DNA from: Candidatus Moraniibacteriota bacterium | Lineage (GTDB): Bacteria > Patescibacteriota > Minisyncoccia > Moranbacterales > UBA1568 | Reading direction: 5' to 3' | NCBI GenBank assembly: GCA_018062205.1 | Contig: JAGOSP010000007.1 | Span: 1-44,161 of the forward strand | DNA length: 44,161 nucleotides | Shown: one piece after another, positions 1,412 to 29,210 of the stretch | Layout: every line of letters begins with the position of its first letter | Numbering within the stretch: position 1 is the first letter of the stretch | Notes under the pieces: generated by a model | Databases searched by the model: none | What the model saw: only the letters and a program-made list of their open reading frames with translations | What the model was told of the DNA's origin: nothing | Made by a program: the position numbers and the translations under genes

Positions 1412-1426
1412 GACAAATTGTATTAT

Positions 1427-1912
1427 TTACTCAAGATAATCTCCTCTTTCTTCTACTGACCACTCAAGAACCGTGTCATTTTCACCAAAGAGGAATTTTG
1501 TCTGAAATTTTTTCCCTTCAAGCAGCAGGGGGAGCCAATAGATGTCATCTGGCCACATCGTTGTATATGGGATATCTTCATAACGAAACCAACAGGGCTT
1601 CATTTCTTCTGTTTCGGTGATTTCTCCAGAATACGTTGTGGAACAAAAAACATGGACTTCAAGAATCACCCCAGGGTTATCCAAAAACTCAAATTCGTGT
1701 TTCCCAACTCTTTCCAGGTTATACACTTTTATTCCGGATTCTTCCTCTGTTTCACGTTTCGCTGCTTCTTCGATACTTTCTTCTGGATTCAATTTTCCCC
1801 CGAAACCATTCCATCGGCCAGCTCCGAAACCGCGTTTTTTCAAACCGAGCAAAACTTTCCCTTCTTGAAGAAGAAAGCAAAGGGTAAAGAGTTTTTTCTT
1901 TATATTCACCAT
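1427..1912 (-). CDS. Nudix hydrolase, MTH1/8-oxo-dGTPase-like
   Basis: 161 residues. A complete Nudix box (G-x5-E-x7-REUxEExGU) runs from about residue 37 to 60: GGKLNPEES through RETEEESGI. The preceding GFGGK motif and the spacing of RFEYLDNP-like strands resemble eukaryotic MTH1 and bacterial 8-oxo-dGTP diphosphatases, which clean oxidised nucleotides from the pool. The ATG start overlaps the end of the upstream MazG-like gene by 7 bp (ATGGTGA), implying translational coupling. Pairing a Nudix enzyme with a MazG-like pyrophosphohydrolase makes a nucleotide house-cleaning role likely. The exact substrate cannot be read from sequence. Confidence 0.9.
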   Translation of the reverse strand: MVNIKKKLFTLCFLLQEGKVLLGLKKRGFGAGRWNGFGGKLNPEESIEEAAKRETEEESGIKVYNLERVGKHEFEFLDNPGVILEVHVFCSTTYSGEITETEEMKPCWFRYEDIPYTTMWPDDIYWLPLLLEGKKFQTKFLFGENDTVLEWSVEERGDYLE

Positions 1913-2211
1913 GTCTCTTCAAGAATAATTTTTCGATCAAAACCACCTCGTTCTTTACGCTTCTGTTTTTGGAGTGCAACTATATCCTCCAATGCCCATC
2001 CTTGTTCAGCAAGAAGCGCTGTTATCACTTCAAAAATATCTGACATTTCTTCTGGCGAACAAGCTTCGGTAAACTCCCGTACCTCTTCATCTAGTTTGGC
2101 AAGTAATCGCTCATGATATTCTTCATCAGTTGCTGTATGCCAGATAGCTCTCTCCCCTTTAGCCTCAATCCGTTCGATGATACGATCCCGAACTAGTTTA
2201 TGATAGTGCAT
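1906..2211 (-). CDS. MazG-like / phosphoribosyl-ATP pyrophosphohydrolase-like protein
   Basis: 101 residues, starting MHYHKLVRDRIIERIEAKG. The KLVRDRI start, the helical EEVREFTEA segment and the EEMSDIFEV segment (acidic EExxE...D metal-binding pattern) match the small all-alpha NTP pyrophosphohydrolase family (MazG-like, 'phosphoribosyl-ATP pyrophosphohydrolase'-annotated house-cleaning proteins). These hydrolyse non-canonical NTPs to NMP and pyrophosphate. No his operon is present, so a histidine role is unlikely. It is the first gene of the reverse operon with Nudix and L,D-transpeptidase; the stop overlaps the Nudix start. A candidate promoter is -10 TATACT (2249-2254) with a weak TTGGCG -35. 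Confidence 0.8.
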   Translation of the reverse strand: MHYHKLVRDRIIERIEAKGERAIWHTATDEEYHERLLAKLDEEVREFTEACSPEEMSDIFEVITALLAEQGWALEDIVALQKQKRKERGGFDRKIILEETW

Positions 2212-2292
2212 AAGTCAACAACAATATAAATCCTATTTTCTCTCCTCCAGTATACTTGAAATTAACATCTCGCCAAAGAATTTGTTTTTTGA

Positions 2293-2298
2293 TATAAT
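2293..2298 (+). promoter_or_regulatory. -10 box upstream of the GH130 pair
   Basis: A perfect TATAAT lies 26 nt before the ATG at 2325. No convincing -35 is seen at the right distance. The transcript leader would be about 20 nt and carries no SD. Confidence 0.5.
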
Positions 2299-2324
2299 AG
2301 AAAAAAAGAAAAAAAACTTCTCTT

Positions 2325-4226
2325 ATGCAAAATCGTCGAGCCACACGAAGGGATATTTTTGTTTTCGATTCTGGAAAAAATACCTATTTGGCAAGTAGTA
2401 TTCCCGGAATGACCGAGACTGTTTTTTCTCTCCTTGTTTCACGAAATAGCGAGCATTCTCTCTTCAAAGAACATCACTCTGGTGCAAGCATTGAGCTCGC
2501 CGATAAGAAAAAAATCCCTCTCGATACCAGCTCTCTGTTCCGCACTAGCACCATACAGGAGCATACTTTTCTTACCTTTGTTCATCGAGCTGCAGACAAA
2601 AAGACCATCGAGCTTGTCGGAACCAGCGACCTCAAACACTGGAAATCCCATCAAACACTCGATCATTTTTCGCAACCACCTGTTTTTGTTGATTTACCAG
2701 TAGCAAAAAGGCGGCGGCGTATTGGGGCTTTCGTGAGTATTGGCCGCAAACATATCGGTGGCTTCATCGGAAATAAAGATTTTGCTGATTGGGAGGACCA
2801 AGGAACGATCCTTGAGGGACGGACGTCCTCTTTTGACGCCACACATCTTGAACCAATTGCAGTGACCGAGCTCCCTTCGGGCATTCTCCTTCTCTACTCA
2901 ACAAAAAATAGCGAAAATCAACTCTCCATAGGGGCAGCTATCTTTGATCCAAACAATCTCACTCTCACGCGCTGGCGGGCACCCGCACCACTCTGGAAAG
3001 CACCTCATGACTGGTACGCTGAACCAGTTACTTTTCTTGGCGCAAGCTTTCATGGGAAATATGGCACTATTTTTCTCCAAAGATCGGGGCATACCGCGGA
3101 AAGCTTCCCGCTTCCCAAGCTTTGGGAAATGTATCACCTTCCCAAGCGGCTGGTTGCTGTCAGAACAAAAGACTTAAAACAAAAAGCAGAAAAAAAAGTT
3201 GTCACCGCTCTCCAACTTGTCCGTTTTCATTCCAATCCTATTATCGAGCCTAAAGAAACCAATGCCTGGGAAGCGATGGCAACATTCAACGCGGCAGCCG
3301 TTACCCTTGATGATCGAGTTCACCTGCTCTATCGAGCGCAAGGTCACGATGGACATTCTGTCCTCGGCTATGCCACAAGCACCGATGGTATTCACATCGA
3401 TGAGCGGCTGGATTATCCAGTCTATGATCCCTCTCAGATAACCAAAACACCAAAAACTCAAGATCAAAAATTTATCCGTCATCCGTACATGTCTGGCGGC
3501 GGAACTGGTGGATGCGAAGATCCACGCCTGACTCGTATTGATGATACTCTCTATCTCACCTATACCGCATTTAACGGCATCCAGCCACCCGGAGTAGCGT
3601 TGACTTCTATTTCGATACAGGACTTTCTCGCCAAACGATTTGACCGATGGAAAAAACCACGTCTTATCTCACGCTTTGGACATATCCAAAAAAACTGGGT
3701 TATTTTTCCGGAGAAAATCGGTGGAAAAATTGCCATTCTTCATAATGTTTCCCCACGCATCATGATGGAGCTGGTAGATGAAATCGATGCACCAACACTT
3801 GTTATTGATAGCTGTCCGCCGCGCCAGGCTGATAATGCTCACCGATGGGATAATATCGTTCGTGGAGCCGGCGCGCCCCCCTTGCGTACTGAATACGGTT
3901 GGCTCGTGTTGTACCATGCCATGGATGCCAATGATCCAAACAAATACAAGGTCGGAGCAATGCTTCTTGACCTCCATAACCCAGAAGTCATTATCGCTCG
4001 TTCTCCAGCACCAGTACTTGAACCAGAAGAGCACTATGAAAATAATGGCTACAAATGGGGTGTTGTTTTCGTCTGTGGTGCTCTCATAAAAGATGGAACA
4101 CTTTTTGTCTACTATGGAGCTTCTGACAAAACACTTGCTGTTGCCACTGCCTCTTTGCCGAGCTTCCTCAACGATCTCCTCGGAAACAGAACACCACAAA
4201 TTAAAGCTGTAACCATACAAAGTTAG
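2325..4226 (+). CDS. GH130-type glycosidase/phosphorylase with divergent N-terminal propeller
   Basis: 633 residues, cytoplasmic, no signal peptide. The C-terminal half (about 285-625) is a GH130 five-bladed propeller: NPIIEPKETNAWEA start, LLYRAQG, GCEDPR at about residues 396-401 (its acidic residue is catalytic in the family), and a late EEHYENNGYKWGVVF blade. GH130 enzymes phosphorolyse or hydrolyse beta-mannosides. The N-terminal half (about 1-280) has propeller-like blades (FADWEDQG, HLEPIAV, GILLLYS) but no GCEDPR, so it may be a non-catalytic or binding propeller. It is 5 nt upstream of a second GH130 gene and surely co-transcribed with it. The precise glycan is unknown; about twice the usual family length. 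Confidence 0.85.
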   Translation: MQNRRATRRDIFVFDSGKNTYLASSIPGMTETVFSLLVSRNSEHSLFKEHHSGASIELADKKKIPLDTSSLFRTSTIQEHTFLTFVHRAADKKTIELVGTSDLKHWKSHQTLDHFSQPPVFVDLPVAKRRRRIGAFVSIGRKHIGGFIGNKDFADWEDQGTILEGRTSSFDATHLEPIAVTELPSGILLLYSTKNSENQLSIGAAIFDPNNLTLTRWRAPAPLWKAPHDWYAEPVTFLGASFHGKYGTIFLQRSGHTAESFPLPKLWEMYHLPKRLVAVRTKDLKQKAEKKVVTALQLVRFHSNPIIEPKETNAWEAMATFNAAAVTLDDRVHLLYRAQGHDGHSVLGYATSTDGIHIDERLDYPVYDPSQITKTPKTQDQKFIRHPYMSGGGTGGCEDPRLTRIDDTLYLTYTAFNGIQPPGVALTSISIQDFLAKRFDRWKKPRLISRFGHIQKNWVIFPEKIGGKIAILHNVSPRIMMELVDEIDAPTLVIDSCPPRQADNAHRWDNIVRGAGAPPLRTEYGWLVLYHAMDANDPNKYKVGAMLLDLHNPEVIIARSPAPVLEPEEHYENNGYKWGVVFVCGALIKDGTLFVYYGASDKTLAVATASLPSFLNDLLGNRTPQIKAVTIQS

Positions 4227-4231
4227 AAATT

Positions 4232-6145
4232 ATGTCATTCTTTCACCGCTCCTACGAAAATCCGATTGTTGTCCCACAAAGCGATCTTGCTTGGCAAGCT
4301 GAAGGCGCATTCAACGGATCGGTTTGGCGAGAAAAAGGAAAGACTCATATCGTCTATCGTGCCCAATCACTCCCCTTGCTCCATGATGAGGGGCCATGGC
4401 TTTCCATGTCTTCTATTGGCTACTCACACAGTACTGATGGTATCCATTTTCAAAAACACACACCGCTTATTGTTCCCGAAGAGAAATGGGAGCGCTTCGG
4501 TTGTGAAGATCCTCGTATCACCAAAATCGATGATACCTATTTCATTTTTTACACAGCACTTTCGGTATTTCCTTTTTGTGCCGACGGAATTCGTGTGGGC
4601 GTTGCGCTTACCAAAGACTTGAAGCATATCGATGAGCGACATCCAGTCACGCCCTTCAATGCCAAAGCTATGGCACTTTTTCCCGAGAAAATCAACGGAA
4701 AATACTATGCACTTCTGACACCAGACACCGATATACCTCCCGCTAAAATTGCAATAGCCTCCTTCTCGAAGGTTGAGGATATCTGGAATCCAACCCGCTG
4801 GAAACGCTGGCATGATTCACTCGACAAACACACTCTCAAACTCTCTCGTCATGATGATGACCAGGTTGAATTTGGTGCTCCGCCTATCAAAACCAAAGAA
4901 GGTTGGCTTATTCTTTATTCTTATATCCGAAACTACCGAAGTGGAACGCCGCTCTTCACTGTTGAAGCAGCCCTTCTTGATCTCAAAAATCCTGCTCGCA
5001 TCATTGGACGCACCACTGCCCCGCTTTTTGTTCCCGAAGAAGAGTATGAACTCTACGGCAAAGTACCTGACGTTGTTTTTCCCACTGGTGCAACTATCGA
5101 TCGTGACACACTTATGTTTTACTATGGCGCAGCCGATACGACTACTTGTGTTGCTACAGCAAGTCTCTCAAAACTCCTCAAAGAACTCACAACACCCGCC
5201 AGCAAGCGCCCTCTTTTTCAGCGTTCCGAAAAAAATCCTGTACTCGAGCCAATTACCGAACATTCCTGGGAAGCCAAAGCTGTTTTTAATCCCGCGGTCA
5301 TCGCACATGATGAAAAAATTCACCTTCTCTATCGTGCTACAGCTCCAGATGATACCTCCACGCTTGGGTATGCAACATTTTCTGATATAGATACGCTGGA
5401 GTCACGTTTGCCTGATCCCGTCTACACGCCACGCCTACCCTTCGAACAAAAATCCACCCCAGGGAACTCTGGCTGCGAAGATCCGCGCCTGACACTTCTC
5501 GATGGTACCGTCTACCTCTTCTATACTGCCGTTGATCCAGCTAAACCACCCCGAGTTGCTCTCTCAACCATCAGTGAAGATGATTTCTTTGCAAGACGTT
5601 TCAATCAGTTCTCTCTTCCGGTTCTCATCTCACCTCCCGGTATCGACGACAAGGACGCTTGTCTCTTTCCTGAAAAAATCAATGGGAAATACTATATCCT
5701 TCATCGCATCCAGCCTTCCATTGATATCAATGCAGTTTCTTCGCTTGATTTTAATGGAAGCACTCCATTCCTGGCACATCGACCGTTTCTTTTCCCGCGG
5801 CGTGGTATGTGGGATAGCAAAAAAATTGGCATCAATACTGTCCCCATCAAAACCCCTGCTGGTTGGCTGATTATTTATCATGGTGTATCCGATAGCGGTG
5901 TTTACAGCCTTGGTGCGTTTCTCCTTGATCTCAAAAATCCCGAAAAGCTTCTTGGTCGAAGTCGATACCCTCTCTTTACTCCAGATGAACCCTATGAACG
6001 CGTTGGAGTGGTTCCTAACGTCGTCTTTCCCTGCGGAGCCTGTGTCATCGGTCAAAAACTGGTCATTTACTACGGCGGAGCCGATCGCGTGATTGGGGTA
6101 GCCTCTCTGCGTCTCACTTCACTTATCGCTTCTCTTAAAGACTAA
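4232..6145 (+). CDS. Tandem double-domain GH130 glycosidase/phosphorylase
   Basis: 637 residues made of two complete GH130 propellers. Domain 1 (about 1-315) begins RSYENPIVVP and has GCEDPR at 90-95. Domain 2 (about 325-637) begins RSEKNPVLEP and has GCEDPR at 414-419. Both repeat the LFPEKINGKYY strand and end with a YYGAAD/YYGGAD blade. Known GH130 members act on beta-1,4- or beta-1,2-mannosides using phosphate or water. No signal peptide, so it works in the cytoplasm. It follows the first GH130 gene after 5 nt. No good forward terminator follows directly; a hairpin plus T-tract at 6590-6615 is the nearest. Confidence 0.88.
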   Translation: MSFFHRSYENPIVVPQSDLAWQAEGAFNGSVWREKGKTHIVYRAQSLPLLHDEGPWLSMSSIGYSHSTDGIHFQKHTPLIVPEEKWERFGCEDPRITKIDDTYFIFYTALSVFPFCADGIRVGVALTKDLKHIDERHPVTPFNAKAMALFPEKINGKYYALLTPDTDIPPAKIAIASFSKVEDIWNPTRWKRWHDSLDKHTLKLSRHDDDQVEFGAPPIKTKEGWLILYSYIRNYRSGTPLFTVEAALLDLKNPARIIGRTTAPLFVPEEEYELYGKVPDVVFPTGATIDRDTLMFYYGAADTTTCVATASLSKLLKELTTPASKRPLFQRSEKNPVLEPITEHSWEAKAVFNPAVIAHDEKIHLLYRATAPDDTSTLGYATFSDIDTLESRLPDPVYTPRLPFEQKSTPGNSGCEDPRLTLLDGTVYLFYTAVDPAKPPRVALSTISEDDFFARRFNQFSLPVLISPPGIDDKDACLFPEKINGKYYILHRIQPSIDINAVSSLDFNGSTPFLAHRPFLFPRRGMWDSKKIGINTVPIKTPAGWLIIYHGVSDSGVYSLGAFLLDLKNPEKLLGRSRYPLFTPDEPYERVGVVPNVVFPCGACVIGQKLVIYYGGADRVIGVASLRLTSLIASLKD

Positions 6146-17392: not shown

Positions 17393-17432
17393 ACTTCCAG
17401 TAAGTAAAGGAATTACGGTATACTATCTTTGA

Positions 17433-17462
17433 AGTATACGGCAGAGTTTAGAGAAAAGTCAA
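17433..17462 (-). promoter_or_regulatory. Promoter of the wHTH-rmuC operon
   Basis: Reverse strand: -35 TTGACT (17457-17462), 18-nt spacer, -10 TATACT (17433-17438). A second GTATAC lies at about 17417, giving an inverted pair GTATAC-N-GTATAC that could be an operator for the wHTH protein. Confidence 0.6.
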
Positions 17463-17504
17463 CGAAAAATACCTTCTTTAAGCCCAGATACAAGCCGTAT
17501 TTTA

Positions 17505-17513
17505 TGCTATACT
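17505..17513 (+). promoter_or_regulatory. Extended -10 promoter of the gene at 17528
   Basis: TGCTATACT (TG at 17505-17506, TATACT at 17508-17513) without a clear -35. The start would be about 17520, on or next to an ATG. Confidence 0.5.
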
Positions 17514-17527
17514 GGACAGATGAAGCT

Positions 17528-19918
17528 ATGAGAGAGAAAAAAGAAGAAAAATCTCATGATTTTCGGGAGAATATCCGTGTTATATCCCAGATTCAAGCAA
17601 CCCGCGGACGTGATGCCGAACATTTTATAAAAATTTTTCGTCATGAAGGCGATAATGTTGCAAGCGCTACGCTTGGAACACTACTTGGCGTATTCGAGAT
17701 TGATGATTCGAGCGAAGATTCGAAATATATCGTCAACTTTCTTTTTTCTGTTGCCAAAAATGAATACTTTTGTAACCCAAAACGAGAAGCAACGGAAAGT
17801 TTTGAAGCAGCACTTCACAAGATTAATGTTGCGCTTGCCGAGATTGTTAAACACGGAAACATTCATTGGCTTGGAAAATTTCACGGAACTATAGCGATAC
17901 TTGAGAAAAATTCAATTCACCTCTCTGCGGCCGGCGACGGAAGAATCTATCTTTGTCGCAACAACTCGCTTTCACACATTAGCGAAGGACTCGCCTTTCC
18001 TGATGCTGCCGAACACCCCATTAAAACTTTTATTGAAATATCTAGCGGGCAACTCGTGCCAGGTGATCGCATATTATTTCTTCTTCCTCAGGCAGTTAAC
18101 ATTATCAGTGAGCCTATTCTTGCGCGTCATGCAGGACAAATGAATCAAGACAGGCTCAATCAATTCCTTCGAACCGCTATGATTAACAAGCTTGATCGTG
18201 GCGGAGCTATTGTGGTTGATATTGAAGAAGCTCCCTTGCAACCAACCGTTCCCGCTCAAACACACAAGAAAACTACCGAACAAAAACTTCCCTCCAAAAA
18301 TTATTTTTCCGAGACCGCTTTTGAGAAGAGGTCTAACGAAAGCATTGCAACCGCACTGTCCGAAGAACACTCATCCCGCGATATACCACTTATTGATCCA
18401 GAATATACCGACACGAAAACTGGTCATATTTATATCCAAGGTGACAAAAAAGAAACTCCTATCGAATCATCACGTGTTGCCCAATATTCTGAATTATTCT
18501 TTTATTTCAGCCAAAAAATAGGGAATGAAGGCTGGAAAAAGTCTTCTCGATTATTTCGAAATATTTCTCTGAAAACAAAATTTCTTTGGCTAGAAACTAC
18601 CAACCGAGCGCAAGGAACTTTTACAATTCTTGCAGAGTCATCATCTCGATATCGTGCCCGAAAAACAATCTCCGCAACAAAAAAATCTCAAGTCATCAAA
18701 GAATCTATCAAGGTTTCACCTCAAGATACGCATCCTCGATTAATACAGTACCCGAAATCTGTCACCGAAGAATCCTCTAATCAGGAATTCCCAAGTGCCT
18801 CCTCACAAGAGCCACTCCTCAGACAAGCTCATAAAATATTCCTCCGAACTACTCCATTCTTTTTATTTATACAAAGAGTGCTTCGGTCTTGGATTATTCT
18901 TCTTGTTCGTTTCCTTCGAGCCTATTCCCCTTTCGTTCTCAAAAAAATACGGAAGGCTCTCTCTTTTCTCGCAATCTCTCTCCGGGCGATATTCCTCCGG
19001 CTTTCTCCTCGACAACGACTCGTGTTTATCTCCATCTGTCTCGGTATTATAGGGCTCATATCTTGGAATTTCTTTCATTCAAAAACAGAGTCAATCACTC
19101 CTCTGATGGAAGATTCTTCTCTATCAGAATCAACGCGCTCTCCGATCAATTCTCTACGAAGCCAGGAAACAATAGTCCAGGATTTCCCCTCTTCTCAAAT
19201 ACTTTTCCAGCATCAAGAAATAATCGCTGCAACCTATATCAAAGATACGCCAATCATCATTACCAAAACCACTCTCGAAATACCTTCCAAACAATTCTCC
19301 ATTCCTCTTCCTGATGGAAACGGTACGCCAAAGATGATTATATCCATGCAAGATCTTGATCTCCTTTTTCTTCTCACTGATACCGGCGCACTGATAACAT
19401 TTAGCCCAATAAGCAGAACTTTTGCGTTCAACACACTTCCTGCTAACCCCTCCGTTATTGCACACATGGGCGCTTATCTCACCTATCTCTACACAATCAA
19501 CACTGATGGAACAACCCTCATCCGTTATCCTCGAGTGTCAGGAGGATTTGGCGAGGGAACCCCGTGGCTCAAACAAGATTTACATTCAGATAAAAATGCT
19601 TCTTTCGCCCTAAATGAAAACGTCTTCATCTTCTCAAACTCAGTGCTCACCCAGTACTCCCGCGGAAAAGCCCTTCTTGTTTTTGAATCACCAAAAATCA
19701 CACCTCAGAAACTTGCGCTCGCAACCGAACCCGAAAATCCGCTCCTTGCAGGACTCGATAGCGAAAACGGACGTCTTATTGTTTGGAATGCCGATGGACA
19801 CATCAAGGGGCAGTATTTTTCAGATACACTAAAAGATGCAACTAGCATCTCACTACATAATCAAACCGTCCTTGTTTCTACCCCGACTGAAACATTCGAG
19901 AGCACTTTACTACCATAA
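17528..19918 (+). CDS. Degenerate PP2C-like membrane protein with C-terminal propeller-like region
   Basis: 796 residues from ATG 17528; a TTG 33 codons upstream keeps the frame open, but the promoter at 17505-17513 favours this start. Residues about 1-230 have the PP2C/PPM outline (LLGVFEIDDSS, FHGTIAILEKNSIHLSAAGDGRIYLCRN, SGQLVPGDRILFLLP), yet the metal-binding DG pairs are lost (LLPQ where SDGL is expected). A linker of about 200 residues is followed by a basic amphipathic/hydrophobic region (about 440-520) with a transmembrane helix FISICLGIIGLISWNFF. The outer part (about 545-796) is beta-rich, propeller-like (GALITFSP, GRLIVWNADG). Probably a sensor or scaffold across the membrane. Convergent with the VirD4-like cluster. 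Confidence 0.6.
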   Translation: MREKKEEKSHDFRENIRVISQIQATRGRDAEHFIKIFRHEGDNVASATLGTLLGVFEIDDSSEDSKYIVNFLFSVAKNEYFCNPKREATESFEAALHKINVALAEIVKHGNIHWLGKFHGTIAILEKNSIHLSAAGDGRIYLCRNNSLSHISEGLAFPDAAEHPIKTFIEISSGQLVPGDRILFLLPQAVNIISEPILARHAGQMNQDRLNQFLRTAMINKLDRGGAIVVDIEEAPLQPTVPAQTHKKTTEQKLPSKNYFSETAFEKRSNESIATALSEEHSSRDIPLIDPEYTDTKTGHIYIQGDKKETPIESSRVAQYSELFFYFSQKIGNEGWKKSSRLFRNISLKTKFLWLETTNRAQGTFTILAESSSRYRARKTISATKKSQVIKESIKVSPQDTHPRLIQYPKSVTEESSNQEFPSASSQEPLLRQAHKIFLRTTPFFLFIQRVLRSWIILLVRFLRAYSPFVLKKIRKALSFLAISLRAIFLRLSPRQRLVFISICLGIIGLISWNFFHSKTESITPLMEDSSLSESTRSPINSLRSQETIVQDFPSSQILFQHQEIIAATYIKDTPIIITKTTLEIPSKQFSIPLPDGNGTPKMIISMQDLDLLFLLTDTGALITFSPISRTFAFNTLPANPSVIAHMGAYLTYLYTINTDGTTLIRYPRVSGGFGEGTPWLKQDLHSDKNASFALNENVFIFSNSVLTQYSRGKALLVFESPKITPQKLALATEPENPLLAGLDSENGRLIVWNADGHIKGQYFSDTLKDATSISLHNQTVLVSTPTETFESTLLP

Positions 19919-20051: not shown

Positions 20052-22547
20052 TTAGGCACCCTCAGCAAGTTTGACTCGATTCATAATTTCACGATTCACA
20101 GTAGCAGCATCGCGCCCAAAACGAATCCTTGAGAGCTCTTTCAGGGCATTAGCAACCTCCTGACTCCCTTTTGTTGGAGCATATGTTTTCATATTGAAAG
20201 GTTTGGTCAATTCCCCGTTCATCAAAATACGTGAAAAACAATTATAGTTATCAACGTTCATTAAATCATTGGCGCTAAAAATTGGTGAAAATTGTTTCTC
20301 AAGAAATTCGCCATCCTCCGGACCGACGCGAAAAGCCACCATACTCCCGACATTTCCGAAAACTGCCTTAGAAATATCTTCTTTAAGTTGAGCAATAAAT
20401 TGATGTGCCAAAATGAGACATAGGCGATATTTTCGAGCCTCTGAGAGAATCTGTGCAACAGAATTTGTGGTTACATTTTGAAACTCATCTAAATATAAAT
20501 AAAAATCTTTCCGTTCATTCTCTGGCATGTCAACTCTCGAAAGAGCTGACATTAGCAAGCGCCCTACGATAACCATACCGAGTAATCGCGCATTAATTTC
20601 GCCAATCTTCCCTTTGGAAAGATTGATAAGTAAAATTTTTCCACTATCCATGATCTCACGAAAATTGAGAGCGCTTGTCTGCTGCGCGATAATTGGGCGC
20701 ATAATATCATTGGAAATGAAGGCTGTTAGCTTGGAAGTGATGTAGGGTACCATGTTAGCAAGAGCTGCCTCGCCACCAGCCTTTTCAGCTTCCTTTAGCC
20801 AGAAATCTCGAACAATCGGATTTGCGCAATGATCGAGCTTAAACCGTCGAAAATCCTCGTCCGACAAGACTTTCGATATCTCCATCAACGTTGAGCCACT
20901 TTCTGGATGTTCCATAATCAACAGCATGGCATTGCGCATGTATTGTTCAAACATCGGACCGCCAGTTGCTTTCAAATCATACAGTTGATCAAAAATCCCA
21001 ATCATTTCATTGATGATAAAGGTCTTTTGCTCAGGATGAGCCGGATCAAATTCCAACATATTGATACCAATTGGACGCTCAACGTCTGCTGGATCAAAAA
21101 TAATGACATCCTCAGCTCGCTCTTTCGGTATAGCTGTCAAGATATCTTCAATAGCATCACCATGGGGATCGATAAAGCAGAATCCCTTCCCGTTCGCAGC
21201 ATCCTTTTTGGCCATTTCCTGAAGAAAATTTGATTTCCCGGCACCAGTTTGACCAATAGTATAAAGATGCCGCCTTCGGTCATTATCCGTAATACGAATT
21301 TCCGTTTTTGTACCGCGATAATCATTGTAGCCCAACAAAAGTCCTTCTGTAGGAATATTGATCGGTGGCGGAGCAGCGCCTGCTTTCAGCCACTTAATTT
21401 TTGGTGTTTCAGTTGTCGAAATAGGAAAATGAAAAATACTCGATACTTCCTCAACTCCGAGCACACACGAATCCTCTTCATCAAAAGTACGAAAAATATA
21501 TTCGAATACTGCCTGTTTCTCTTTCACTCGACGAAGCACTCGAAATAAATTCACTTCTGGATTTTCAAACTGACTGAAAGCATTTTCTACGTGTGATAGT
21601 ATTTCTGCTGCCCGCTCATGCGTCTCAGCAGTAGCAATCAATCTGATATTAACCGAAAATGCTGCCTTATTCGCCTTGCTATCAATTGCCTTCACTAAAT
21701 CCTGCTCTTCTGGAGTCAAGGAAACCTGCTTCTCCGATGGATCAACATGGGAAGGGGTTGATACATTGCCTCCTGAAAGAACATCCATCATGCCCTTTCC
21801 AATTTCTTTGCCAGCGCCTTTCATAAGAGAATCCCCTTGCGCATCCCTGAGTCGCTTTCCTCCCTGCATTTTTTGTGCAATTTCATGTCCAGAAGACCGC
21901 CACCCACTTGGTGCCGGAGCAAGCACTACTTGAATCGCTGCTCCTTCTGCTTCAGTGTTTAATCGACTTAAAGCATTTGAAATTTCATTCAAAGGATCCG
22001 TTCCAATGCTCCGATAGGTACGCAACGGAAGAGCATGATTCTTTGAAAGACCAATCACCGCTACCGCTGTCGCACTATGCGGAGAAAATACGGTATAATC
22101 AGAAACTTTTTCAATAACAGCCGCAGGAAAAAAACTGTGTAACTGTTTTTCAATATTTTCCCGGAATCGCTTCGGCATGGATAAATAGAAAAAAATCTCT
22201 TCGCTATTTGATGGGTTGGCAATTTCAAATACAATGTTTGGCATTTGATAAAACCACTGCTTCCAAGAACTCGCTTTCCATTTCAGAGACGAAATAGAAA
22301 TCAAGAATTGTTCCATCGCAATGATTTCTTCTCGCCAAGCATCTGCACTTTGATTCTGTTGTGCCTCTTGACTCCGCTTGATGCGAGACACTTTAACCAC
22401 TTCCAAATCCATCTGCATCGATTGACTCACAGCAATACGAAAACGCAATATACTACGAATAATCAAAAAGCCACCTGAGAATATTGCTAAAATACCAAAT
22501 ATACCCAAAAGTGGTACCAAAACAACATTGAAATCAAAACCAGACAT
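20052..22547 (-). CDS. VirD4/TraG-like membrane ATPase
   Basis: 831 residues. An N-terminal transmembrane helix (about 10-28, LLGIFGILAIFSGGFLII) is followed by a large domain (30-400) and a RecA-like ATPase: Walker A GQTGAGKSN at about 428-436, FIDPHGD after it, Walker B YLYLDEFQN at about 683-691 and a Q-rich sensor AHQFIAQL. The FIDPHGD and LDEFQN motifs are typical of the VirD4/TraD/TraG coupling family with HerA-like relatives; such proteins pump DNA or proteins. No relaxase, VirB4 or pilus genes are nearby. Last of a five-gene reverse cluster. CPR genomes commonly carry this type. Confidence 0.85.
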   Translation of the reverse strand: MSGFDFNVVLVPLLGIFGILAIFSGGFLIIRSILRFRIAVSQSMQMDLEVVKVSRIKRSQEAQQNQSADAWREEIIAMEQFLISISSLKWKASSWKQWFYQMPNIVFEIANPSNSEEIFFYLSMPKRFRENIEKQLHSFFPAAVIEKVSDYTVFSPHSATAVAVIGLSKNHALPLRTYRSIGTDPLNEISNALSRLNTEAEGAAIQVVLAPAPSGWRSSGHEIAQKMQGGKRLRDAQGDSLMKGAGKEIGKGMMDVLSGGNVSTPSHVDPSEKQVSLTPEEQDLVKAIDSKANKAAFSVNIRLIATAETHERAAEILSHVENAFSQFENPEVNLFRVLRRVKEKQAVFEYIFRTFDEEDSCVLGVEEVSSIFHFPISTTETPKIKWLKAGAAPPPINIPTEGLLLGYNDYRGTKTEIRITDNDRRRHLYTIGQTGAGKSNFLQEMAKKDAANGKGFCFIDPHGDAIEDILTAIPKERAEDVIIFDPADVERPIGINMLEFDPAHPEQKTFIINEMIGIFDQLYDLKATGGPMFEQYMRNAMLLIMEHPESGSTLMEISKVLSDEDFRRFKLDHCANPIVRDFWLKEAEKAGGEAALANMVPYITSKLTAFISNDIMRPIIAQQTSALNFREIMDSGKILLINLSKGKIGEINARLLGMVIVGRLLMSALSRVDMPENERKDFYLYLDEFQNVTTNSVAQILSEARKYRLCLILAHQFIAQLKEDISKAVFGNVGSMVAFRVGPEDGEFLEKQFSPIFSANDLMNVDNYNCFSRILMNGELTKPFNMKTYAPTKGSQEVANALKELSRIRFGRDAATVNREIMNRVKLAEGA

Positions 22548-22592
22548 AATTATATTTTGTGTGTTTGTTTGAATATTCTCTTTGCGGGAGTT

Positions 22593-22988
22593 CTACGGGG
22601 CTTTTTCTACTAATCCCTTTTCAATCAGACCTTGGTAAAATTTATCTACCATTTCGTCATGCATCCGATCAAGCAAATAGTAATTTTTCATTTTTTGTGC
22701 CACATGTACTGCGTGCGGGATACCTTTTTGCGTCGCCAAATCCATCAATCTGGTAACCTGGCTTTCTATGTCGGCCAACAGAGAAAGATTTCGGGCATCA
22801 TCCGTTGCGCTACCCGTAGATCCAGCCGTGCCGAGCACCGGAGCAGTCTTACTGAGAATCTCGGCTAATTGGTTCGCTTCTGTTTCCTGTTTTTTTTCTG
22901 GAGTACCCTCTCTCTCTACATTTTCAACAACTAAATCCCCCTGCTCTTGCGAAGCGGATATACCTTCTCCATTTTCATTTGAATCCAT
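22593..22988 (-). CDS. Small conserved hypothetical of the VirD4-like cluster
   Basis: 131 residues from ATG 22988, preceded by AGGGATAAC; an upstream ATG at 23021 in frame lacks an SD. An acidic, Gln/Glu-rich N-terminus (1-50) precedes a helical C-terminus (about 65-131: LSLLADIESQVTRLMDLATQKGI, HAVHVAQKMKNYYLLDRMHD). No membrane segment. Unknown function. It lies between the DUF5663-like gene and the ATPase, 45 nt upstream of the latter. Its helical C-terminus would suit binding to the ATPase; that is inference. Confidence 0.65.
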   Translation of the reverse strand: MDSNENGEGISASQEQGDLVVENVEREGTPEKKQETEANQLAEILSKTAPVLGTAGSTGSATDDARNLSLLADIESQVTRLMDLATQKGIPHAVHVAQKMKNYYLLDRMHDEMVDKFYQGLIEKGLVEKAP

Positions 22989-23037
22989 GTTATCCCTAAT
23001 CGACCGCAATTCCTCTGGCATACGTATTCAAAAGACA

Positions 23038-23337
23038 TTAAACGAATTCCTGTTTCATTTGCTCCTTAAATTCTGCGACTACTTTCACAATCATATCCTC
23101 ATAATCCGGAATTCTTCTCTTCAAAAAAGCAGTGATTTCCTCCTGAGAGCCATTCCGATCAATCAACTCATCATATTCTTTAGTACCAGACTCTCCGAGA
23201 CGGTCGAAAGTTTCGAGGAGAATGCGCTTTAAAAGCGCCTCGCCCATCTTGGCAATTAATTCGGTTTTCCGTGTTTCATCGAGTTTTCCAAAACCAAGTT
23301 CATCGGCTAATTGATTCAGTATCGCTGTGTAGTCCAT
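23038..23337 (-). CDS. DUF5663-like small helical protein
   Basis: 99 residues, all alpha by composition: MDYTAILNQLADELGFGKLD, then KTELIAKMGEALLKRILLETFDRL and PDYEDMIVKVVAEFKEQM. The pattern L-x-[KE]-M-G-E-x-L-L-K-R fits DUF5663 as I remember it, a family largely from CPR bacteria; this is not verified here. Positioned between the 1184-residue protein and the hypothetical gene in the VirD4-like cluster. No catalytic residues stand out. Confidence 0.65.
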   Translation of the reverse strand: MDYTAILNQLADELGFGKLDETRKTELIAKMGEALLKRILLETFDRLGESGTKEYDELIDRNGSQEEITAFLKRRIPDYEDMIVKVVAEFKEQMKQEFV

Positions 23338-23376
23338 ATGTATTTTTTCACAAGATTATTTATAACGAAGCTATGT

Positions 23377-26300
23377 TTATACGACTGTTTTTGGAGAGAG
23401 AGCGGAAGTTCTGACAACTTTCAAAAAATCAGCGACGGTGGCGTCTGGATTTGCCCTAAAAAAATCCATGCTCACCTTTCCTCCGTACTGAGCAGATACT
23501 ACCATTATTTTCTTCGCCTCACTCAACGGAATTTGACCCTGAGCAAGCATTGGATTTACATTTGAAACGCTCGTTGTCCCATTCGCTCTCGAATAGTCTT
23601 GCAAAAAATCTCTCAAGCGAGTGCCCGACGGGAGATGAGTCACAACCTCTTCTGCATCTACCATAAGCACTCTCGCTGTCATTAATTCTGCACCCGACAA
23701 TGAAGAAGGGAGGGGTGTTTCCCCCGAACCACCAGCTACGGACTCAGGCTCAACCATAACACTAGAAGTCCTCACAGAATCTAGGGCTCGTTCACGTGTC
23801 TCCTCATCAATGTAGCCTCTTCCTCCTTCAGATGGAGCGGCTTCTGCTGCGGATCCCTGAATATTTGATAAAATAGACTGCTCTTGAGCAGGAGTTATAC
23901 TTTTTGCAGCTGCCAACGCTGTATCGACATCATTCGCCGTCAAATGTTCTGACAAATTGAAAGTTTTCCCGGCGAATATCTTGTCTGTCCCGCCAGCTGC
24001 CAAATATCGATTCTTCAAGGCATCGATAAAGTAGGTTTTTTGTGCTGGATTCAAATCAGTTTGAGATGCAAGCTGTGTATCGATAATTTTCCAGACAGAA
24101 TCTCCTCTTACTAGAGTCACTTCTTTCCCGAGAAGAAGAGAGTCTTTTCCTACTGGGCCAGGAGCTTCTTTCATAACTGCTTCTGGCGTAACCACATTAG
24201 CTTCTTTTGCCTCTGGTATAGCATCAGCTGGTACCGCTGGTGGTGCTGCATCAACCGAAGCAGGGGCCTCTCCACCCACACCTACTGGACCACTCGCCGG
24301 AGAATAGTCATTACCAAATACTGTTTCACCAGCCAATGATGCAGCCTGACCTGCTTTCGTAGCAATAGCCTGTGTGAATTCATGTCCTGCCTCCGATGAG
24401 AAAAAGGCTGGGAGTCCGAAACCAACACCCACACCAGCCGCCAAGGCACTCAGTCGCCTCCGATCCTGCCCGCGCACTCGACTCTCTAGTGTTTGATCAA
24501 GAGAGCCAATAATATGATCATCCATGAAAGCTTTCATGCGATCAAGCTTGTCATGAAGAGATTCGGGATTTGCTTCGGGAGATACTACTTCAGCTTCATC
24601 TGCTGCTGCTTCTGCTTCAGCAGTATCATTCTGCGTGAAAAAGTCAGAAGAGGTCATTTCTTGTTGCCCCTGGGCCACTATTTTTTCTGCCATTTTCTGT
24701 GCTCGACTCTCTGCAAGTTTCTGCAAACCTCCATCGGCCGTAGCAAACATACCCGCTGCTGCTATCCCTCGTCGAGCTAAAACAGCTGCAATAGCCGCTG
24801 AAGCCATTGCAGTTCCCAAAAGACCCACTCCAGATGCAACCGCCAAACCAGCTACTGGAATACCAATAAGCAACTTTTTCTTCCAAGAAATCTTATTATA
24901 CGATTCTCCAAATTGTTTCAATTTCCCAAGAACACCCTTTTGTTCAGACTTCAACTCCGTCCAGGCATTATACAAACCAATATTCACCTCGTGACTAAAA
25001 TGGAGTAGTTCTGCTTCAAGATCCTTCGCCAAATCCTCCTGCAGCGCCTCGGCTCTATCTACTTCGTTTCCCTCATTTCCTTCTGAAACAGCCTGCGCTA
25101 TCTCTCGAGTCCCCTGATGCTTCAGGGTTACCATTTCCAAACGAAGATCACGGAGTTCACGCAATTTAGACTGATAAGCTTCTTTTTTTTGTGCAACGGT
25201 CTCATTTTGGATACCTTTCCCAGAAATTCCGAGTACTCCCTTCAGGCGACTCATTACCGTGCGACTTTCATTATCCACTGTGACGTAGTCTACACGTGCC
25301 TGATCACAAACGAGGGTAATAGCGTTGATTTTTTGTTGTAATTTTTCTTCTGAAGTTGCGTCTTCGTTTTCAATACCTGATTCTCCGCCTCCTAATTCAT
25401 CTGAATGAGATCGCCCTACCGGTTGCCAGTTTTGACGTAATCCAAAGCTTGCTAACACCTCCGCTTCCTCTCTTGATTCTGCGGGTGCTTCAAGATCGCT
25501 CTCCTCTGATTCATTGGATTCTTTTTCCTCTGTTAATCCATCAGACTCTTTGCTACCTTCTTGTTGCAGTATATTTCTCGTATGCATCGGATGATTTCGC
25601 ATTCTCACAATAGCAGGCGTAGGTTCACTCTGAGTAGACGCTACTGTACCGGTCTGCTGGTCAGCTTCCTTCAAGTACTCCTCCACCCAAACACTTCCGT
25701 CTGCATACTGACTATTCTTTGATTCAGTATCCACTGGTGTTTTATCAATCGGTGTTTTTGTTGCCGGCTCCTCATACGTTCTGCCAAAACCAACTAATTC
25801 TTCATCAAAATGAATTTGGGATTTCTTTGCCGGATCCTCGTATGTTTGGCCAAAACCAACTAATGCTTCGGAATCCAATTGCTGTTCCTCGGGTTTCTTT
25901 GAAGCTGCTGATTGTGATGTTTGTTCAAAAGACATAGGATTGGTCTGGTTTTTTTCTCTTGGTGATACTACTGCTTCGGCTACGACTCGAGCTAGCTCGG
26001 GTATCTGAGAGGATACTGTCGTCTGAGGAGGGTCATTGGTCTCACTTACCGTCTGTTCTCTTCCTCTTCTCCTTCGACCTCTACCAGGCCGTTGACTGTC
26101 AATCGCTTCCGTATCTTCATTCCCTGCTGTTGCGCTACCGCTCTCTCCTTGACCTAAAGATTCCTCTTGTGATAAAGCTTCAACACCGAGTGCAGCAGAG
26201 ACACGATCGTTCCCTTGGTCTACTGCAGCCATCTCCGGTGTACTACCACCAAATTGTCTCCCTCGCACAGTTCCGCGCTGAGGGGGAGTCACATCGACTA

Positions 26301-26931
26301 GCACAGTTTCACCAACCTCTTCTGGAGCGACTATTTGCTGTGTGGGCGCCGCAGCTTCAATCATTGGAATAACTACTCTGTCATCCTCACCGCCAATAGC
26401 TATTGGTTCTCCGCTTTCTTCCTCCGAGGAAGCCTGCGCTCCACTCACCTCATCAAGAAGTTGCTTCATTTCCTCTAGTTCTTCTTCGGTAAGTGGAAGG
26501 ACAAATCTCCTTGTATTGCGCAACACATCTTGCTCGGCAATGTGTGTCAATCCAGCCGCTGTAAACATTCGTTCTAGTGAATAATTCCCACCATCATCAC
26601 CTGGAATTTGCCTCACTACAATATTCCCATTTGGAAGTATTTGTACAATCTCAAATTCATTATCCTGCTGTTCGGCATCCGCAAAACGCATTCCAACCAC
26701 TGGCTCGATATCTCCTCCTAACAATTCTTGAAGCACATCTACTGCACGATTTGCAGATGTATGTTCGCGACCTTCTCGCCTTGACCGCCCTTTTGGTTTT
26801 CTCGAAAAATCCTCAGAGTCGTTCGAGGGTGTGGGTTTCGGGCCATGGAGCTCCGCTGCTCGCTGTCTACTCTGTCTCGATGGCTTCTCTCCTTCATCAG
26901 ATGATTTTTGAATAAATGGTTTTTCTGCCAT
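23377..26931 (-). CDS. 1184-residue membrane protein with beta-barrel-like, coiled-coil and LysM-like modules
   Basis: Order: basic disordered N-terminus (1-65); small beta-rich module (about 78-125, VVGMRFADAEQQDNEFEIVQ); long acidic, Gln/Ser-rich linker (125-540) with a tandem repeat LVGFG(Q/R)TYE(D/E)PA at about 355-390; coiled coil (about 560-680); Gly/Ala-rich hydrophobic segment (about 685-725, LLIGIPVAGLAVASGVGLLG); second hydrophobic segment (about 828-845); Pro/Ala linker; a LysM-like module (about 938-1020: VRGDSVWKII, LNPAQKTYFIDAL, IFAGKTFNLSEHL); and a C-terminal domain (about 1080-1184). It probably spans the membrane and binds the wall. Second gene of the VirD4-like cluster, likely a structural component. 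Confidence 0.7.
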   Translation of the reverse strand: MAEKPFIQKSSDEGEKPSRQSRQRAAELHGPKPTPSNDSEDFSRKPKGRSRREGREHTSANRAVDVLQELLGGDIEPVVGMRFADAEQQDNEFEIVQILPNGNIVVRQIPGDDGGNYSLERMFTAAGLTHIAEQDVLRNTRRFVLPLTEEELEEMKQLLDEVSGAQASSEEESGEPIAIGGEDDRVVIPMIEAAAPTQQIVAPEEVGETVLVDVTPPQRGTVRGRQFGGSTPEMAAVDQGNDRVSAALGVEALSQEESLGQGESGSATAGNEDTEAIDSQRPGRGRRRRGREQTVSETNDPPQTTVSSQIPELARVVAEAVVSPREKNQTNPMSFEQTSQSAASKKPEEQQLDSEALVGFGQTYEDPAKKSQIHFDEELVGFGRTYEEPATKTPIDKTPVDTESKNSQYADGSVWVEEYLKEADQQTGTVASTQSEPTPAIVRMRNHPMHTRNILQQEGSKESDGLTEEKESNESEESDLEAPAESREEAEVLASFGLRQNWQPVGRSHSDELGGGESGIENEDATSEEKLQQKINAITLVCDQARVDYVTVDNESRTVMSRLKGVLGISGKGIQNETVAQKKEAYQSKLRELRDLRLEMVTLKHQGTREIAQAVSEGNEGNEVDRAEALQEDLAKDLEAELLHFSHEVNIGLYNAWTELKSEQKGVLGKLKQFGESYNKISWKKKLLIGIPVAGLAVASGVGLLGTAMASAAIAAVLARRGIAAAGMFATADGGLQKLAESRAQKMAEKIVAQGQQEMTSSDFFTQNDTAEAEAAADEAEVVSPEANPESLHDKLDRMKAFMDDHIIGSLDQTLESRVRGQDRRRLSALAAGVGVGFGLPAFFSSEAGHEFTQAIATKAGQAASLAGETVFGNDYSPASGPVGVGGEAPASVDAAPPAVPADAIPEAKEANVVTPEAVMKEAPGPVGKDSLLLGKEVTLVRGDSVWKIIDTQLASQTDLNPAQKTYFIDALKNRYLAAGGTDKIFAGKTFNLSEHLTANDVDTALAAAKSITPAQEQSILSNIQGSAAEAAPSEGGRGYIDEETRERALDSVRTSSVMVEPESVAGGSGETPLPSSLSGAELMTARVLMVDAEEVVTHLPSGTRLRDFLQDYSRANGTTSVSNVNPMLAQGQIPLSEAKKIMVVSAQYGGKVSMDFFRANPDATVADFLKVVRTSALSPKTVV

Positions 26932-26945
26932 ACAAAAAATGTCTT

Positions 26946-27452
26946 TTATACTATTGTTTTTTGATCTTTATTTTCATTTTCCTCTTTCCTCTTCTCAAGC
27001 TGATAGGCATTTTGTTCAATAAATTGCCGCATCTCTTCTCCAGAACCGAAAAACCACTCTCCGTGTGGAGGATTTTCTTTCTTTCCAAACAAAGCCCGAG
27101 CTTTTCGAATAAAAGATGAGCTCGAACCCTCCAGCATATCCTTAGTCCGAAAACGAATACTCACTCCTCCAACAGAAGTAATGCTATCAACCCGAAATGA
27201 AGACTCCTTATTTGACCATATGTCCCCAATTGAAACCCCGCCGGAAGACGCGACAACCAGGACCGGCTCGACTACCTGCGGAGGAGTAATCCGCACTTCC
27301 TCTTCGGGTACTGAGACCAAAGCAGCAATTGGTTCTGCACCCACCTCCAAAGAAGGTGCGGTAGGTGAGGCAACAACTGCGGCGGGAGTCGCACCCATGT
27401 CAATTATTGATACTCCGCTTGGTTCCAGAGGCACCGTCTGTTCTTCATTCAT
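26946..27452 (-). CDS. Small protein with beta-barrel-like module, first gene of the VirD4-like cluster
   Basis: 168 residues. A Pro/Val/Ala-rich low-complexity N-terminus (1-68) precedes a beta-rich module (about 72-112: VSIGDIWSNKESSFRVDSIT, then GGVSIRFRT) and a charged helical tail (about 140-168, GEEMRQFIEQNAYQLEKRK). The module has the same strand pattern as residues 78-110 of the downstream 1184-residue protein. No membrane segment; no SD. Separated by 14 nt from the next gene. Function unknown. Confidence 0.65.
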   Translation of the reverse strand: MNEEQTVPLEPSGVSIIDMGATPAAVVASPTAPSLEVGAEPIAALVSVPEEEVRITPPQVVEPVLVVASSGGVSIGDIWSNKESSFRVDSITSVGGVSIRFRTKDMLEGSSSSFIRKARALFGKKENPPHGEWFFGSGEEMRQFIEQNAYQLEKRKEENENKDQKTIV

Positions 27453-27499: not shown

Positions 27500-27519
27500 A
27501 CTTTAGTATAATACTACCA
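27500..27519. promoter_or_regulatory. Symmetric -10 region between divergent genes
   Basis: TAGTATAATACTA contains TATAAT forward (27507-27512) and TATTAT/TATACT on the reverse strand. It lies between the VirD4-like cluster (reverse) and the GT-C genes (forward). -35 boxes are weak both ways. Confidence 0.5.
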
Positions 27520-27527
27520 TAATCAAG

Positions 27528-29210
27528 TTGAAAAATAAAAAAGAAAGTGATTTTCTGAAAGGTTCAGATATTTTTTTCGACACCTCTCTTATGTGGAAAT
27601 CTCTTCGATTACATCTCCCCCTCATTCTTATTGTTACCGCTCTCCTTCTCCTTGCTTTCTTCCTCCGCATATATCGACTCGAGTCCCTTCCGATTGGTCT
27701 CTACCCTGATGAAGCAGCCAACGGTGTTGATGCGCTGCACGCTATTGAAACTCATCACTTCGAACTTTTCTATCCAGCTAATTTTGGGCGCGAAGGCCTA
27801 TTTATTAATCTACAAGCGCTTTCTCTTTGGCTTTTTGGAAACACCATGGTTGCTCTCAAGTTGTGTTCCGTCCTTTTTGGAACTTTTACGGTGCTAGGTC
27901 TCTTCCTTCTTGGGAGAGAGCTTTTTCACCGTACCAGCGCTGGTCTCAGCGCAGCGTTCATGATTGCGACTTCTTATTGGGCTATCAATTTCTCCCGTAT
28001 CGGCTTCCGAGCTATTATGACTTCCTTTCTCCTTGCCTTCGCCTTTTTCTTTTTCTTTCGTGGTCTCAGAACTCAAAAGAAAACCGATTTTCTCATTTCG
28101 GGACTTATTTTCGGACTCGGGCTTCATACCTACATTGCCTTCCGCGTTGCACCGCTCATCCTCATTCTTCTTCTCCCAGCGCTCATGCTTTCATATGAAC
28201 ATTTTCTCCGTCGTTTTTGGAAGCACGGTCTCACCTTTATTCTCGGTGCATTCATTGCAGCCGCACCCATGCTCTATCATTTTTTTGTCTCACACCCCGA
28301 AGATTTTGAGTCCCGCTCATTGCACATCTCAGTCTTCTCCCCCGACGTGAATCATGGAAATCTCCCAGAAACACTCACTCGAACTTTCGCTACCTCTCTC
28401 ATTAAGTATAATTTTCTTGGCGACCAAAATTGGCGACACAATTACCCTCCATATCCCATACTTGATCCAATTGTTGGAACACTCTTCCTTACCGGATTCT
28501 TCATACTCTTTTTTCAGCTTTTTCAGCTCCTTTATCGTCGATTTCGTCACAATGATCGAGATTTTCGTCTTGTTATTAATGTCTTCTTGTTTGGATCATT
28601 CTTTTCCATGCTCGTTCCAGAATTTCTGACTGATGAAGGCCTTCCGCACGCTCTCCGTTCCATCGGTACTCAAATGCCTGTCTTTCTGTTTGCTACCGTT
28701 CCGGTACTCTGGATTCTTAAAAAAGCCAAGAATAGCGCTGCTGGTCTCCGCATTGCCCTCTTTTCTCTGCTTCTTATCACCTTCTCAGCTTCTGCCTGTT
28801 TTAATATCGCAAAATATTTCGTCCTCTTTGCTCAAGATCCAAAATCTGGAGAATCATTCAACGAAAACTACACCAACATGGCAAGATATTTTCTCTCTTT
28901 ACCAGATCAAGTTCATAAGTACTATCTAATTGATAGCAATGGGAACAAAGATCGCTTCAATCTACCGGTGGCCGGCATGCCTGTTTATTTTTTTACCTAT
29001 CATCGAGTGAAAAATTTTGAAATTATCTCTTCTCTCGAAACCGCTCTTCTTCGGCCTGGCGTCTATGTCATGACTCACTTTGACCAAGAATTTGCCAAAA
29101 AAATAGAACAACAATACCCCGGGTCCTCTACGGAACACATCGATATGAATGGCCCAGAACGAAGCGGCGGAGATTTTAACGTGATTATCATCCCAGATAC
29201 TAAATATTAA
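27528..29210 (+). CDS. PMT/ArnT-like GT-C glycosyltransferase
   Basis: 560 residues with TTG start; an in-frame ATG at 27594 (residue 23) is an alternative and neither has an SD. About ten or more transmembrane helices. The first loop has LPIGLYPDEAANGVDAL, the acidic GT-C motif of dolichyl/undecaprenyl-phosphate-sugar transferases, followed by a GREGLF element. A C-terminal soluble part (about 470-560) ends GGDFNVIIIPDTKY. The family moves sugars from a polyprenyl-phosphate donor to proteins or lipids outside the membrane. Co-directional with a second GT-C gene 49 nt downstream. Donor and acceptor are not readable. Confidence 0.85.
   Translation: MKNKKESDFLKGSDIFFDTSLMWKSLRLHLPLILIVTALLLLAFFLRIYRLESLPIGLYPDEAANGVDALHAIETHHFELFYPANFGREGLFINLQALSLWLFGNTMVALKLCSVLFGTFTVLGLFLLGRELFHRTSAGLSAAFMIATSYWAINFSRIGFRAIMTSFLLAFAFFFFFRGLRTQKKTDFLISGLIFGLGLHTYIAFRVAPLILILLLPALMLSYEHFLRRFWKHGLTFILGAFIAAAPMLYHFFVSHPEDFESRSLHISVFSPDVNHGNLPETLTRTFATSLIKYNFLGDQNWRHNYPPYPILDPIVGTLFLTGFFILFFQLFQLLYRRFRHNDRDFRLVINVFLFGSFFSMLVPEFLTDEGLPHALRSIGTQMPVFLFATVPVLWILKKAKNSAAGLRIALFSLLLITFSASACFNIAKYFVLFAQDPKSGESFNENYTNMARYFLSLPDQVHKYYLIDSNGNKDRFNLPVAGMPVYFFTYHRVKNFEIISSLETALLRPGVYVMTHFDQEFAKKIEQQYPGSSTEHIDMNGPERSGGDFNVIIIPDTKY

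Follow-up and report, generated by a model that had tools for sequence, protein, structure and literature searches.

A chromosomal VirD4/TrwB-type coupling ATPase encoded with two small acidic proteins and a large membrane/wall-type protein in Moranbacteria

Does a coupling ATPase that lies alone among housekeeping genes serve a type IV secretion system (T4SS) encoded elsewhere, or does it belong to a machine of its own? The question is raised by five genes in a 44,161-nt stretch of DNA (hereafter the window; contig JAGOSP010000007.1) from a Candidatus Moraniibacteriota bacterium. It bears on how Patescibacteria, which are tiny, probably host-dependent bacteria, deliver substrates to their T4SS, or on other uses to which they put coupling ATPases, and makes the operon a concrete target for how they move molecules across the envelope. 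A sequence-only reading of the window had described the genes as a VirD4-like cluster without a T4SS and had suggested a chromosomal transport system special to this group, possibly for uptake of DNA or protein.

The operon and its surroundings

The operon comprises five minus-strand open reading frames (ORFs) separated by gaps of 14, 39, 16, and 45 bp, matching the compact same-direction arrangement first described. In order of transcription, they encode a 168-residue protein (26946-27452); a protein of 1184 residues, here called BIG (23377-26931); an acidic DUF5663 protein of 99 residues (23038-23337); an acidic protein of 142 residues, HEL (22593-23021); and T4CP-A, a coupling ATPase of 831 residues (20052-22547). 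A candidate operon promoter, TTTTCA-18-TATACT (27505..27534, minus strand), lies in the gap between divergent genes; it is a consensus match, of which the scan yields about an equal number by chance. Downstream and outside the operon lies a convergent plus-strand gene (17429..19918), whose product has a PP2C-like N-terminal domain, a hydrophobic segment, and a propeller-like C-terminal part; in a few relatives, members of its family match SpoIIE and NHL weakly. The other neighbors identified by Pfam in the window are housekeeping and envelope genes: those for S2, release factor RF1, PrmC, a WecA-type GT4, RmuC, FtsQ, DNA polymerase III delta', MreB, a MurA-type protein, ParA, and ParB. Among the Pfam-scanned genes of the window there was no relaxase, VirB4, pilin, or mobile-element gene, so the core setting that had been proposed holds for these genes.

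T4CP-A is a true relative of VirD4/TrwB-type coupling proteins, by Pfam and by fold. It exceeds the Pfam cutoffs for TrwB_AAD_bind (4e-9; 36.3 bits against 20.5), TraG-D_C (2e-6; 28.3 bits against 22), and DUF87 (7e-6), and both hydropathy and the AF2 model place a hydrophobic helix, its N-terminal membrane anchor, at residues 6-24; the initial call of a membrane ATPase of this type was thus correct. An N-terminal domain (about 60-400) precedes the motor (about 400-820), whose Walker A (GQTGAGKS, 432-439) and Walker B (DFYLYLDEFQN, ending at 691, with DEFQN at 687-691) are nearly invariant in 60 sequences. In Foldseek searches with the AF2 model (60 sequences; pLDDT 80, pTM 0.56), the motor matched TrwB (1e9s; E about 6e-12, TMt 0.63, ~420 columns), HerA (4d2i; E 2e-11, TMt 0.53), and Cagbeta complexed with CagZ (8dol). 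Together, N-terminal domain and motor gave long alignments to VirB4/TrwK at low TM-score; any resemblance of the N-terminal domain to VirB4 would rest only on this alignment, and profile-profile comparison with the N-domain of the organism's own VirB4 found no similarity. T4CP-A is not itself a VirB4: the P-loop_TraG domain present in the organism's VirB4 is absent from T4CP-A. Pfam found no FtsK_SpoIIIE domain (PF01580) in T4CP-A. A role as FtsK substitute was likewise rejected, since FtsK is encoded separately (C4:29461-30081, and in 36 of 38 relatives).

Although the window lacks a T4SS, as had been noted, the genome does not. VirB4, VirB3, and VirB6 are absent from the operon and present instead at C3:16464-24228, where VirB4 (C3:22378-24228; P-loop_TraG, 6e-29) follows genes for a TrsD-like protein, PrgI, a 420-residue product, a polytopic VirB6-like protein, and a CHAP/LysM protein; the TrsD-like and VirB6-like calls are based on position, size, hydrophobicity, and the published gene repertoire, with no Pfam match. 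T4SS pilins are also present in the genome. No T4CP gene was seen beside virB4 in the stretch of the C3 locus examined. A second coupling protein, T4CP-B, is encoded on contig C2 in two separate parts, the N-terminal one and the motor, the latter with a C-terminal zinc finger in the copy scanned. Contig C2 also has an element-like region. Given a VirB4-type T4SS and T4CP-B in the same genome, the cluster is an unlinked T4CP operon rather than the system of a T4SS-free cell. The sequence-only reading had named, as grounds against itself, T4SS genes in another place that make use of the ATPase; half of this applies, in that a T4SS is there, and it may be served by T4CP-A, as proposed below.

Distribution of the ATPase and of its upstream genes

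A matching ATPase was found in 56 of 57 relatives, representing all 33 genera (33/33), and in 285 of 286 sampled Patescibacteria genomes, in keeping with the suggestion of a chromosomal, group-wide system; these counts take any T4CP passing E 0.001, so that weak scorers (G306, for example) may be paralogue B. Most close relatives of the ATPase come from organisms carrying the name Ca. Moranbacteria or Moraniibacteriota. VirB4 was found in 274 of the same 286 genomes, and the ATPase was retained in genomes where VirB4 was not found, also on a repeat search. Two of these are well assembled: G081, a single contig (G060, of the same genus, has VirB4), and G142, in two contigs. Several others are fragmented, and assembly gaps can contribute there. 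In a tree of motor domains, 28 A-type motors from this order and other classes formed a single clade (support 100/100) apart from paralogue B; plasmid sequences and some of those of B drew long-branch warnings, which limit what the tree says about the kinship of A and B to plasmid forms. The paralogues can now be told apart: A is unsplit and preceded by HEL or a different small protein, and B is split.

A synteny survey found the order BIG, DUF5663, HEL, ATPase kept across Moranbacteria, so the arrangement is not due to chance. Among 81 Moranbacteria-type sequences, counting for each measure the loci with enough flank, HEL was found upstream of the ATPase, at a distance of no more than 300 bp, in 73 of 80, DUF5663 upstream of it in 53 of 73, an ORF of at least 600 residues in the BIG slot in 54 of 65, and the convergent PP2C-like gene beside it in 30 of 59.

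HEL has a variable N-terminal tail and a conserved, helical-looking C-terminal motif (I..L..LA..KG..HAV.VA....D.Y.LD..HD.L...L...L..KG.I); its Pfam matches are scattered, at chance level, and confined to single members. Searched with its profile, the 286-genome sample yields matches in 20 genomes; in no fewer than 19 of these the match is immediately upstream of, or within, the ATPase frame (for the remaining one, G061, no ATPase position is listed). In families f23, f25, and f30 the match falls inside the frame, and in sequences of f19, f23, f25, and f28 the motif is joined to the ATPase N terminus, where no hydrophobic helix is predicted. The two fused members sampled in the motor tree form one clade, so the fusion may date to a single event. 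Other lineages have a different small protein family directly upstream of the ATPase, with the motif LEQEAKIKTDRI. It shows no profile similarity to HEL; different families thus occupy the same slot, and in a few further lineages an unrelated ORF is found there.

The 99-residue protein belongs to DUF5663 (PF18908; 33.8 bits, cutoff 23.7), as had been suspected; the family was detected in 39 of 57 relatives, in most cases directly ahead of the ATPase gene, and we found no mention of it in the literature searched. Mean net charge is about -11 for both HEL and DUF5663. BIG has a long, acidic, variable N-terminal part and a helical middle and C-terminal part. Hydropathy analysis revealed a hydrophobic hairpin (687-719) and a further hydrophobic segment (827-845); basic residues before each suggest that the N terminus is inside and the C terminus outside. 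A LysM-like domain (about 937-993) has a GDSVW motif conserved in relatives and is modeled as strand-helix-helix-strand (pLDDT about 90 in an AF2 model of residues 490-1184); Pfam LysM does not match BIG of the window and matches one relative at 0.007. These features agree with its original description as a membrane/wall protein. A search of the PDB with the whole BIG model gave no significant match, and its profile detected no BIG in far lineages outside the order: BIG evolves very fast and is unrecognizable beyond its order. The first gene fared differently from the other four. Described as a small beta-barrel-like member of the cluster, it does exist as an ORF of 168 codons, but it is lineage-specific and not conserved, with one clear homologue (E 3e-23), at the same-genus locus L052, in the roughly 100 loci compared within the order. 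Comparison gave no support to its being a duplicated BIG domain.

What the complex might do

The reading we favor, at somewhat less than even confidence, is that the products of the cluster form a dedicated coupling-ATPase complex that feeds the resident T4SS where one is present. T4CP-A would be a ring ATPase anchored at the cytoplasmic membrane through its N-terminal helix. HEL would be its constant partner at the N-terminal, membrane-proximal side of the motor, acting as adaptor or regulator, and DUF5663 a second small acidic adaptor. BIG would be the envelope-side element, its N terminus lying inside and its LysM-like C-terminal domain facing the wall on the outside. Protein is a likelier substrate than conjugative DNA, because PF03432, the main MOBP/Q/V-type relaxase family and the one covered by our search, is absent from the genome and present in only 1 of 38 relatives. 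Where a chromosomal T4SS of the VirB4/VirB6-like kind is present, T4CP-A would most likely feed its channel. Three observations point to such coupling: the setting of its plasmid relatives (see below), the lack of a T4CP seen beside the organism's own virB4, and the near-universal co-occurrence of VirB4 and the ATPase. That HEL adjoins or is fused to the ATPase argues for its being the partner, as does Cagbeta-CagZ, a precedent for a small protein that regulates a T4CP. Nothing we found favors the uptake role suggested earlier.

Against T4SS coupling stand the lack of a physical link to virB4 and the retention of the ATPase in G081 and G142, where VirB4 was not detected. T4CP-B could equally be the coupling protein of the T4SS. 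In Southlakia epibionticum, moreover, the T4SS is essential and the t4cp gene is not, according to PMC12102498, and the original study recognized no coupling protein in that T4SS (PMC10633639). The missing linkage, the ATPase kept where VirB4 was not found, and the reported dispensability of t4cp fit instead a VirB4-independent translocase built of T4CP-A, HEL, DUF5663, and BIG, with the T4SS a separate machine. The conserved operon has its own large membrane/wall-type protein, and BIG would give passage through membrane and wall. We consider this doubtful: BIG has no fold match and evolves so fast that a common channel is not established, and the ATPase of another lineage has no predicted membrane helix. 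The wider form of the idea, a second near-universal, VirB4-free envelope translocase of Patescibacteria that is vertically inherited and combines a T4CP motor, an obligate small acidic partner at the motor's N terminus, and a membrane/wall protein that differs by lineage, we regard as unlikely.

It is quite unlikely that T4CP-A moves DNA, whether by Ced-like import or by cryptic conjugation with an unknown relaxase. Its motor is related to DNA-pumping T4CPs and to HerA, its plasmid relatives lie within conjugation modules, and it has weak NCBIfam matches to CedB (15.9 bits) and CedD (22.5 bits), but these fall below the cutoffs of 700 and 600, and the operon has no CedA-like polytopic gene. 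The relaxase counts given above also speak against it, and relaxases are rare across the phylum according to PMC12102498. Highly unlikely is an intracellular, FtsK- or HerA-like translocase for segregation or repair, with the small proteins as regulators: the HerA fold match, a core chromosomal location in a window that also encodes ParA/ParB, MreB, and FtsQ, and the helix-less form of the ATPase are in its favor, but the genome and most relatives encode a separate FtsK, the same operon contains the large membrane/wall-type protein, and TrwB is a better structural match than HerA. That the cluster is a remnant of an integrated conjugative element has a next to negligible probability, even though T4CP genes are usually found in mobile elements and the element-like region on C2 could be cited for it; phylum-wide conservation and core surroundings rule it out at the T4CP-A locus, and the single A clade, conserved gene order, and intact frames contradict it as well.

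Comparison with known coupling proteins

Orphan T4CPs of Patescibacteria were already known in aggregate. Quinonero-Coronel et al. 2025 (PMC12102498) counted 5,713 VirD4 homologues in 2,918 Patescibacteria genomes, 148 of them near virB4, reported about two orphan T4CPs per genome, and suggested that those away from virB4 may be exapted. T4CP-A is presumably among these homologues. In the sections of that paper covered here we found no separation of two T4CP paralogues, no BIG-DUF5663-HEL-T4CP operon or partner protein, and no HEL fusion. New here are the near-universal ATPase with its 28 A-type motors in one clade, the Moranbacteria operon in which BIG, DUF5663, and HEL precede the ATPase, the adjoining or fused position of HEL, and the persistence of the ATPase in well-assembled genomes without a detected VirB4. 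A near-universal T4CP with an adjoining or fused partner provides a specific protein pair for testing.

T4CP-A shares with the VirD4/TrwB/TraG proteins the Walker A and B motifs, the TrwB AAD-binding and TraG-D_C domains, the N-terminal membrane helix, and the TrwB motor fold. It differs in its larger N-terminal domain, in having neither relaxase nor VirB4 adjoining, and in its constant small acidic partner, which in one lineage is fused and replaces the membrane helix. Known systems also include unlinked T4CPs, so the missing linkage does not exclude T4CP-A from the class. The motor weakly matches the profile of Legionella DotL (IcmO; 3e-4). Pfam found no DotM-, DotN-, IcmS-, or IcmW-like protein in the operon; the DotL adaptor complex may offer an analogy for the operon's small proteins. 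In Helicobacter, Cagbeta has the motor fold of T4CP-A and carries CagZ, a small partner like HEL, a likeness that is one of analogy only, as HEL was compared by sequence via Pfam.

The best full-length plasmid relatives are DUF87 proteins of Bacillus and Peribacillus plasmids, homologous to T4CP-A in the N-terminal domain as well as in the motor, as are split forms on haloarchaeal plasmids. The Bacillus gene adjoins genes for Replic_Relax, TcpC, TcpE, a VirB4-type AAA_10 protein, and NlpC/P60, as we checked, and the neighbors of the Peribacillus gene are annotated alike. T4CP-A is chromosomal and stands alone, whereas these relatives reside on plasmids or in plasmid conjugation modules; the known setting of the family is thus coupling to a transfer channel.

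The convergent PP2C-like neighbor

The VirD4/TrwB-type coupling ATPase (T4CP) converges on a gene encoding an 829-aa PP2C-like protein (window 17429-19918, + strand), which adjoins T4CP in 30 of the 59 loci with enough flank. Its PP2C-like domain is N-terminal and its C-terminal part is propeller-like, with a hydrophobic segment between them; from inspection of the sequence by eye, the usual PP2C metal-binding residues may be missing.

Small proteins upstream of or fused to T4CP

HEL is the small acidic helical protein encoded just upstream of T4CP. At six loci (L116, L122, L094, L095, L103, and L108), T4CP itself carries a HEL-like domain at its N terminus, and no membrane helix was predicted in these six T4CPs. 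At six others (L112, L113, L114, L124, L125, and L127), T4CP is directly preceded by a second small protein family, which ends in a LEQEAKIKTDRI-type motif; profile comparison revealed no similarity between this family and HEL.

A contig titled Micavibrio sp. (DYDB01000003.1; L181) also carries a Moranbacteria-type ATPase, at 60% identity; this contig probably represents a mislabeled bin.

A second, split T4CP paralogue

The source genome encodes a second T4CP paralogue, T4CP-B, as two adjacent genes on another stretch (L003 10816-14262; contig C2). On the same stretch, an element-like region (775-5729) was recognized from sequence reading only, with putative genes for a serine recombinase, a rolling-circle-type replication protein, and a TIR-domain-like protein. 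The T4CP-B motor gene encodes a treble-clef zinc finger at its C-terminal end, and the split form was found in all relatives retrieved for T4CP-B (10/10). In genome G036 (contig C7; L237), an additional T4CP motor gene (512 aa) lies a short distance downstream of split T4CP-B.
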